64,000 nt of DNA from positions 1,832,965 through 1,896,964 of the forward strand of contig OX638295.1 of the NCBI GenBank assembly GCA_951812345.1, given 5' to 3'. A program made the position numbers and the translations under genes. Position 1 is the first letter of the stretch; each line of letters starts with the position of its first letter. Shown here piece by piece: positions 10,638 through 13,586 of the stretch. This stretch comes from Rhodothermales bacterium. Lineage in GTDB: Bacteria > Bacteroidota > Rhodothermia > Rhodothermales > VXPQ01. Under the pieces are notes generated by a model. That model was given only the letters and a program-made list of their open reading frames with translations. It searched no databases and was not told the origin of the DNA.

Positions 10638-10789
10638 AAAATTCAGGAAATAGATTATGAATACCTGAGACAGAACATGGCATGAAAGAATCTACCGAAC
10701 GCAATCGGACACTACCTCCTCCCTTGTGAACCAGCAGTACGGTGATTAGTTTTTGCGGGCTTGCATGTTGCATTTTCCAACGCGTTCCC

Positions 10790-11611
10790 ATGCCCAGGAC
10801 CCCCACTATCCGACAAATTTCAGAATTTCTCGAAGCATGGGCGCCTCTGTCTTCCGCGATGTCGTACGATAATGTCGGTCTGCAGGTAGGCAACCCCGAT
10901 ATGGAAGTCCGGACCGCATTGCTTGGACTGGACATGACGCCAGGGCTGCTCAACGAAGCGAAAGCGCTCGGCGCCACGCTTATCGTCACCCACCATCCAC
11001 TTCTTTTTCGCCCCTTGCATGCCGTCACCACAGAAGCCTATGTCCCCAGTCTGGTCTGGCGTCTCGCCGCGGAAAACATCGCACTGTACAGTATCCACAC
11101 AAACCTTGACGCCGCCTCGGGAGGCGTATCGTTTGCCCTCGCAAACCAACTGGGACTCACGCATACCGAATTTCTCCAGCCCTCTGAAAGCGGCGAAACC
11201 GGCTTCGGGGCGGTCGGCTCATTGCCTGCCCCCATTCGCCTGCAGGCCCTTCTCGAAATGGTTGCCGAGCGCCTCGAAACCCCTGCATTACGTTACGCGG
11301 GCGACCCCGAAGCACGTATCGAGCGCGTAGCCGTATGCGGCGGTGCAGGAAGCAACCTGATTGCGGAAGCGGCCTCTCACGGCGCAGACGCTTACATTAC
11401 TGCGGATATAAAATATCACGACTTTTTCAACGTGCTCGACACGCAAGGGCATCCGTACCCCGCCCTGATCGATGCCGGACACTACGAAACGGAAAAATTC
11501 ACAGAAAGCCTGCTTGTCGAGGCTCTGGCGAAACAATTTCCCCAAACAGTCTGGCAACGTACGCAAACGAGCACAAACCCCGTGCGAACTTTTATCCCTC
11601 CAGGATGTTAA
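10790..11611 (+). CDS. Nif3-like dinuclear metal-centre protein
   Basis: 273 residues. The Nif3/YbgI metal ligands are visible: VTHHPLLF near the N-terminus, HTNLDAASGGV, and the C-terminal DAGHYETEK. An SYDNVGLQVG motif precedes them, as is typical. Family members form hexameric rings with a two-metal site. A GTP cyclohydrolase I type 2 activity has been proposed, but the role is not settled. The start at 10790 begins MPRTPTIRQISEFLE, like homologues. The zinc-ribbon-family gene follows after 55 bp, a pairing commonly seen next to nif3-like genes. Confidence 0.88.
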   Translation: MPRTPTIRQISEFLEAWAPLSSAMSYDNVGLQVGNPDMEVRTALLGLDMTPGLLNEAKALGATLIVTHHPLLFRPLHAVTTEAYVPSLVWRLAAENIALYSIHTNLDAASGGVSFALANQLGLTHTEFLQPSESGETGFGAVGSLPAPIRLQALLEMVAERLETPALRYAGDPEARIERVAVCGGAGSNLIAEAASHGADAYITADIKYHDFFNVLDTQGHPYPALIDAGHYETEKFTESLLVEALAKQFPQTVWQRTQTSTNPVRTFIPPGC

Positions 11612-11666: not shown

Positions 11667-12425
11667 ATGCCCACTGCTCAGGAGACAAGTACCGGCGAAC
11701 AACTGCGAGCCCTGATCTGTCTCCAGTACATCGACAGCCAAATAGACCAGATCGAAAAACTGCGAGGCGACCTGCCGGAAGAAATTCGCGACCTCCGGGA
11801 CGAAAAGGAAGGGCTTTCGACACGCATTGAGAAATACAAGCAGGAGGAAACGCAAAACAAGGAAGACAAGGAGTCATCCGGCAAAGGTATCAAGGACGGC
11901 GAGCTACTCATTGCGCGGTACGAGGAACAGCAACTCCAGGTAAGGAACAACCGGGAATACGACGCGCTCACGAAGGAAGTCGAAGCACAGAAGCAGCGCA
12001 TTGAGGAAGCGAAAAAACGCATTGAAGAGATTGACCTGAACGAAGACGGGCACAAGGCCGCTATCGAAGAGGCCGAAACCCGGATGAAGGAACTGGACGA
12101 AGTCCTCGCCACGAAGGAAAAGGATTTACAGGAAGTGCTTGACGATACCAAACAGGAACAGGCGCATCTGGAAAAAAAACGAGCCGAGGCCGCCAAAAAG
12201 GTGGATGCTCGCTATCTGCTCGCCTATGAACGTCTGCGGCAACGTCTGCACGATGGCAGAGCAGTGGTACCGATCGAACGAGGCGCAGCGGCCGGCTTTG
12301 CCGTTCCTCCGCAACGCCAGGTCGAGATCCGCCAGGGTAATCGCATTGTGGCCTGCGAGCACACGGGACGGATCATCGTAGATAACGACCTGTTCGTCAA
12401 GACCGTCGAGGCAACAAACGCATAG
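11667..12425 (+). CDS. Coiled-coil protein of the C4 zinc-ribbon (CdsZ-like) family with lost zinc ligands
   Basis: 252 residues. Residues about 30-185 form a long, highly charged coiled coil. The C-terminus keeps the family core (AVVPIERGAAAGFAVPPQRQVEIRQ, then ACEHTGRIIVD). In typical members two CxxC pairs occupy the positions that here read GAAAGF and CEHTG. Only one of the four cysteines remains, so zinc binding is unlikely. Homologues have been linked to ribosome hibernation (CdsZ) or annotated only as zinc-ribbon proteins. The start at 11667 lies 55 bp after the Nif3-like gene. Probable co-transcription. Confidence 0.82.
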   Translation: MPTAQETSTGEQLRALICLQYIDSQIDQIEKLRGDLPEEIRDLRDEKEGLSTRIEKYKQEETQNKEDKESSGKGIKDGELLIARYEEQQLQVRNNREYDALTKEVEAQKQRIEEAKKRIEEIDLNEDGHKAAIEEAETRMKELDEVLATKEKDLQEVLDDTKQEQAHLEKKRAEAAKKVDARYLLAYERLRQRLHDGRAVVPIERGAAAGFAVPPQRQVEIRQGNRIVACEHTGRIIVDNDLFVKTVEATNA

Positions 12426-12532
12426 CCCGTTCGTACGAAGGCGCACAGGTGATTCTGCCGCCCTTCTCTCGCCATCAGGCAACGACAGGGAACAAGGTCG
12501 AACCAATGCGTACGGCCCGGCACATTCTCCGA

Positions 12533-12788
12533 AGGATACTCTGATTAAGTCCGCAAAGATTCAGAGGCTGAAAGGGGTGCGCTGGCAAGGAATGACGAAG
12601 CAATGTGGCAGGCCCCACATAATGAGGAATGACACGGCCAGCGTGCCCCTGTCTGCCTCCCGAAGGGCGCTTCACGCTCGCAAGTACAGGATATTATGAT
12701 TTTATCATCGGAATCAGCGGAAAATATGCGAATTCGGGGCGTTGCGAACGTGAAGCGCTGAACGAAGTGGATTTGATCAGAGTATCCT
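12533..12788 (+). repeat. Full-length dispersed structured repeat (type 1 loop), reference copy
   Basis: A 256-bp element starts AGGATACTCTGATTAAGTCC and ends GATTTGATCAGAGTATCCT, giving terminal inverted repeats. Inside, arms at 12564-12586 and 12637-12659 pair at about 21 of 23 positions. They enclose a hairpin ATGTGG..CCACAT flanked by two direct copies of GGAATGAC. A second stem joins GCGCTTCACGCTCGCAA to TTGCGAACGTGAAGCGC. It has no transposase and too little coding capacity, so it resembles a MITE or ERIC-like palindrome. It ends six bases before RNase P RNA. Related copies lie at 19437, 23302, 23523, 40631, 53018 and, as derivatives, 6622 and 2452. Confidence 0.9.
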
Positions 12789-12794
12789 TAAATA

Positions 12795-13202
<408 letters not shown>

Positions 13203-13232
13203 TGCCGCCATACGCCAGGAAGGCTTACTCTC

Positions 13233-13586
13233 TTACTCTTCGGCGGGAAGCGGCTGAGGCGCTCCCGGAAGTTCCTGCTGCTCTCCGACAGGAGGCAGTG
13301 CAGGGGTCGTTTGTTCTTCCTGCGCCTGCTGCTGAATCACGCTTTCCTGCACCTGCTCCTCTCCAATAGCGAAATTCGACACGACGCAAAGTACGATGAA
13401 CAGCGTCGCAAGCATCCAGGTCGCCTTCTCAAGCACATCAGGCGCCTGACGCGTTCCCAGGATTTGCTGCGTAGCGCCGCCTGCGGCAATACCGGCAAGC
13501 CCCCCTCCCTTACCGCTCTGCACAAGCACTATCAACGTAATCAGGACCGCAATCAATGCGATCAGCGTGATGATGAACGTAAACAT
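13233..13586 (-). CDS. secG: SecG preprotein translocase subunit
   Basis: 117 residues with two transmembrane helices (about 3-22 and 54-72). Between them is the conserved VLVQSGKGGGLAG loop followed by a Gly/Ala-rich stretch. A long proline- and glutamate-rich cytoplasmic or periplasmic tail follows, as in Bacteroidota SecG. It acts at the inner membrane with SecYE in protein export. The gene is convergent with rnpB and begins 30 bp after its end. The NUDIX gene lies upstream on the same strand. Confidence 0.93.
   Translation of the reverse strand: MFTFIITLIALIAVLITLIVLVQSGKGGGLAGIAAGGATQQILGTRQAPDVLEKATWMLATLFIVLCVVSNFAIGEEQVQESVIQQQAQEEQTTPALPPVGEQQELPGAPQPLPAEE

Follow-up and report, generated by a model that had tools for sequence, protein, structure and literature searches.

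In a bacterium of the order Rhodothermales, an element resembling a miniature inverted-repeat transposable element (MITE) lies just in front of rnpB, the essential ribozyme gene that encodes RNase P RNA. The favoured reading, to which a probability of roughly one half is assigned, is that rnpB would be transcribed from upstream of the element and the resulting leader trimmed. A promoter at the end of the element is judged less likely and one in its loop far less so, with the remainder left to other arrangements. If the end of the repeat drives the gene, an essential ribozyme depends on the terminus of a mobile repeat. Under read-through, by contrast, it offers a natural experiment on how RNase P RNA tolerates a folded leader of 254 nt immediately before its P1 helix. 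Six closely related genomes (G000, the genome described here, and G001–G005) show the rnpB start region with the repeat, without it, and in rearranged form, making the question directly testable.

The locus lies in a 64,000-nt stretch of DNA, referred to as the window, within a 2.8-Mb, single-contig genome in which a 16S search found no match. Its features are listed in Table 1. The co-directed genes upstream of rnpB begin with a Nif3-like gene. The last of them is a zinc-ribbon gene (cdsZ) whose best match is CdsZ (NF047363) at 76 bits, under the cut-off of 275, with PF02591 at 23.6 bits, likewise under its cut-off of 29.1. The interval from the cdsZ stop to rnpB measures 367 nt and contains the repeat, while secG lies downstream of rnpB in convergent orientation. 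An initial annotation of this DNA had described a mobile repeat adjoining rnpB, with the P1 helix starting at about 12795. Both statements hold, the second by the RF00010 match as well as by the P1 pairing itself, and only 5 nt separate repeat and gene. The repeat was, however, said to end at 12788. Since the terminal inverted repeats (TIRs) delimit the element, its last base is 12787, and 12788 belongs to the flank.

Table 1. Features around the start of rnpB (positions in the window).
Feature	Position	Strand	Match or remark
Nif3-like (DUF34) gene	10742..11611	+	TIGR00486 178 bits (cut-off 130.55); PF01784 254.8 bits; start codon putative
cdsZ-like zinc-ribbon gene	11667..12425	+	NF047363 CdsZ; PF02591; directly upstream of rnpB
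CATTCT	12523..12528	+	weak -10-like hexamer in spacer
Left flank CGAA	12530..12533	.	presumed target-site copy; single CGAA in G004/G005 empty sites; right-hand CGAA in G003
MITE-like element, 254 bp	12534..12787	+	TIR GGATACTCTGATTAA / TTGATCAGAGTATCC
TTCACG-18-TATGAT	12671..12700	+	promoter-like, 9/12 match, in element's variable loop
CTGAAC	12758..12763	+	proposed -35, 3/6 match, 19 nt from TATCCT
TATCCT	12783..12788	+	proposed -10; 5 element-end bases + 1 flank base
Right flank TTAA	12788..12791	.	
rnpB, RNase P RNA class A	12793-13208	+	RF00010, 254.1 bits

The anatomy of the repeat fits that of a MITE-like, non-autonomous mobile element. Its TIR pair is present in 60 of the 61 copies looked at; the TIRs are 15–18 bp, the target is 4 bp, and the copies range from 219 to 269 bp in length. 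A 20-base core, allowing at most two mismatches, has 96 matches in G000, 138 in G003, and 20–47 in each of the other four genomes of the genus (0 for a reversed control pattern). By DNA similarity, the repeat is confined to six of 60 genomes of the order, all belonging to one Rhodothermales genus (6/6 there; 0/54 others). For counts of ends and targets, one copy (G004 L138) was dropped to leave 60. Flanking 4-bp copies are exact in 20 of these versus 5.8 expected (0/2000 shuffles); these duplications show a T..A bias and are imperfect at the rnpB copy itself. The two ends of the element also covary, with 7 double changes versus 1.0 expected among 36 distinct end pairs (3/500 shuffles reach this), and its RNA is predicted to fold into one closed structure (-123.5 kcal/mol, z -9.9). 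Finally, the rnpB site is filled in G000 and G003 and empty in G004 and G005.

Other characteristics of the family concern its loop and its surroundings. Inverted arms (GCTTCACG/CGTGAAGC) flank the loop (12670-12750), which is reversed in one subfamily relative to other copies (5 G000 and 8 G003 copies looked at). Among 100 listed forward TIR matches, five are no more than 150 bp away from a tRNA gene, compared with 0.5 expected from the whole-genome fraction, intergenic and genic DNA combined. For example, one match (2455-2469 of the window) sits 50 bp before a tRNA gene at 2519, and there are four more such places in G000.

rnpB is without the repeat in four of the six congeners. G004 and G005 have the same cdsZ–rnpB spacer, 109 nt long (CTCCGAAATATTCC), and G001 and G002 have a 34-nt spacer. 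In the latter pair (L019 and L025, respectively), the two 24-nt flanks of rnpB are reverse complements of each other and lengthen P1 to a GC-rich helix of 26 bp. Apparently, the sequence on the 3′ side was copied, inverted, over the 5′ spacer.

The history of the two filled sites can be read in two ways. The CGAA that remains stands to the left of the element in G000 and to its right in G003, an indication that the target was the same. Two separate insertions at this site are the simpler reading, though not a proven one, with replacement as the alternative. The two rnpB copies belong to different subfamilies and are 79.7% identical, versus 98.8–100% for seven other insertions shared by G000 and G003; the G000 copy is 97.6% like L041, of the reversed-loop subfamily, and the G003 copy 90.2% like L063. 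Third-position identity at the 3′ end of cdsZ, moreover, indicates that G003 is closer to G004/G005 (78.5–80.5%) than to G000 (70%). One old insertion, later lost precisely from G004/G005 and, in either G000 or G003, replaced by a second subfamily, would account for the same position and the one consistent CGAA target. It would require three events, however, and both the subfamily divergence and the closeness of G003 to the empty-site genomes speak against it, so that this origin appears doubtful.

The seven shared G000/G003 insertions (L186/L126, L004/L131, L007/L135, L192/L137, L195/L234, L196/L236, and L202/L258) differ at 11 of 1765 positions, versus 74 of 845 in their 60-nt flanks (Fisher 2.5e-26), and they are unlike element copies within one genome, which differ by 10–20%. 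Constraint, exchange, and repair are candidate causes of this near-identity. The set is not random, since the loci looked at (40 of 96 and 53 of 138) were picked for the conserved core. An element finder run on 52 loci gave no element in 4, and a looser finder was used to compare the shared insertions.

Transcription of rnpB from upstream is favoured on several grounds, beginning with synteny. cdsZ is directly upstream of rnpB in 69 of 70 loci, drawn from 70 of 107 matching genomes; these counts keep L185, which has no CdsZ match, and L175, whose distance of -43 is likely a frame artefact. Outside the genus, the distance from the cdsZ stop to rnpB is at most 20 nt in 31 of 63 loci and at most 35 nt in 39, and this proximity makes read-through a live alternative to a start at the gene itself. 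In the window, a search of the + strand from cdsZ to rnpB yielded nothing resembling a terminator. The congeners point the same way: most have rnpB without the repeat, G003 lacks TATCCT, and the extended P1 of G001/G002 makes a -10 element at the usual place unlikely there. The closed fold of the element and the precedent of a long processed transcript in Staphylococcus aureus count for upstream transcription as well.

By this reading, a MITE-like element inserted into the cdsZ–rnpB spacer, between the weak CATTCT hexamer and the first base of rnpB. The gene would still be transcribed from upstream, by read-through from nif3–cdsZ and/or from a promoter in the end of cdsZ or the spacer. The element would thereby be copied into the rnpB leader, where it may fold as its own closed stem ending a few nucleotides before P1, and the leader is assumed to be trimmed off up to P1.

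Against upstream transcription stand two features of relatives with long spacers, and the S. aureus work itself, the available part of which allows a possible weak start of rnpB's own besides the long transcript (PMC3937233). In 22 non-redundant genomes of the order with a cdsZ–rnpB spacer of at least 35 nt, TATAAT-like hexamers are enriched at -19..-3 of rnpB (mean 7.18 versus 6.0 expected; 0/500 resamplings), with no enrichment at -38..-22 of the same genomes (5.98 versus 5.96). The signal is weaker in relatives with shorter spacers (34/500 and 37/500 resamplings reach it), where stop codons confound it. Several long-spacer relatives also carry a hairpin with a T run in the interval between the two genes. 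In L021, L036, L164, L166, and L171, a GC-rich hairpin with a T run comes to an end no more than ~15 nt from the 5′ end of rnpB, giving the impression that a terminator for cdsZ overlaps an rnpB promoter. Together, the enrichment and the hairpins make a start at the rnpB 5′ end plausible in the order, and they suggest that a long spacer, such as that of G000, may go with a promoter belonging to rnpB itself.

It was such a start that the initial annotation took for granted in arguing that any -10 element must lie inside the repeat. The argument holds if transcription begins at the rnpB 5′ end, but cdsZ read-through would remove the need for it. The annotation's specific proposal was that the right end of the element is the rnpB promoter, with TATCCT as -10, CTGAAC as -35, and a start near 12795. 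On that view, the insertion would have replaced the weaker CATTCT, which occupies -12..-7 of rnpB in the empty sites of G004 and G005 and is displaced upstream of the repeat in G000. Both hexamers lie where they were placed. Comparison of rnpB upstream regions among relatives, which the annotation had advocated, lends the idea some support in the proximal -10 enrichment across the order. The -10 score just upstream of rnpB is also higher in G000 (9.5, a value attained by 11 of 64 loci from other genera) than in G003, G004, and G005 (7.5) or in G001 and G002 (4.7). In addition, the sixth base of TATCCT is a T that differs from the presumed target base, C.

Several observations count against the proposal. 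TATCCT is indeed part of a conserved terminus, but its sixth base already belongs to the flank, and in G003 the hexamer reads TATCCC. It is found at 42 of 60 right ends and at 43 of 60 left ends, so the hexamer comes with the family as a generic end. As a -10 it matches TATAAT at 4/6 positions, and the -35 matches at 3/6 with a 19-nt spacing, which is near chance. Among 16-nt stretches of the window, 1578 of 18282 (8.6%) contain a hexamer with at least 4/6 matches to TATAAT including A2 and T6, and 929 of 18274 (5.1%) do so with a -35 of at least 3/6 at 15–19 nt. Taken alone, the promoter match is therefore not far from chance.

Nor are the copies placed as would be expected of mobile promoters of the Correia type, mostly upstream of gene starts: among 39 G000 copies, 15 right ends face a gene start and 24 a gene 3′ end, by gene calls from a home-made ORF scorer. 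Only right-end orientation was used because some left-side gene calls fall inside the element. Right ends of many of these 39 copies lie within ~25 bp of a converging gene's stop codon, so insertion at gene ends may be favoured or tolerated.

Searches for a promoter signal suited to this lineage were negative. No clear motif emerged from the upstream regions of 24 tRNA genes that have no other tRNA gene before them (30 of 43 tRNA genes covered). TAnnTTTG, a Bacteroidota-type motif, did not become clearly more frequent ahead of rnpB, and the rnpB-proximal part of the spacer proved no more conserved than the rest (80–89% over the 3′ 45 nt; 80–92% in the 5′ part). All told, a promoter in the right end of the element is a tentative proposition, though a possible one. 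More improbable still is the compound scenario in which two subfamilies inserted separately at the same base, between the -10 region and the start of RNase P RNA, in two related species and at least one end was adopted as a -10.

A promoter in the element's loop (TTCACG-18-TATGAT), with a leader of ~85 nt, is highly improbable: it is the best sigma-70-type + strand match in 12300-13300 (2 matches on both strands versus 0.3 expected) and its T at 12695 is unique to this copy (the remaining 12 members of its 13-copy subfamily have C), but in G003 the loop differs and runs the other way, leader trimming would still be required, and the sigma-70 consensus may not suit a phylum in which tRNA upstream regions gave no motif.

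The literature located offers analogies in parts. In the available portion of the work on miniature inverted repeats and rnpB, a Porphyromonas study names rnpB solely as an annotated ncRNA; a search linking Rhodothermales, inverted repeats, and sponges found nothing, and one for rnpB with cdsZ returned only an unrelated Mycoplasma item. Promoters within MITEs are well known, according to the accessible text of PMC10969869, so a repeat-end promoter at rnpB would be noteworthy for the gene concerned, the type of event itself being familiar.

The Correia elements (NEMIS) of Neisseria are described, in the excerpts available, as short MITEs with TIRs, folded transcripts, and >100 copies, and outward promoters, inversion, and RNase III cutting are reported for them (PMC10969869, PMC2229807). 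By description, the repeat resembles them in being short and having TIRs and a predicted folded RNA. In contrast, it has 15–18 bp TIRs and a 4-bp target, its right ends mostly face gene 3′ ends, and it is known here from sequence alone. The BrickBuilt MITEs of Porphyromonas, for which promoter-like sequences are reported in the same partial source (PMC10969869), are again likened by description and belong to the same broad phylum, Bacteroidota, whereas the repeat here is confined to one genus among the 60 Rhodothermales genomes. For upstream transcription, the closest parallel is S. aureus, where RnpB is processed from a long transcript that comes from SA1279(gpsB), the gene preceding rnpB, as far as the available text of PMC3937233 describes. 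In both organisms a protein gene on the same strand precedes rnpB, and no obvious terminator separates the two. The upstream gene and the phylum are different here, however, and the S. aureus leader is without a mobile element.
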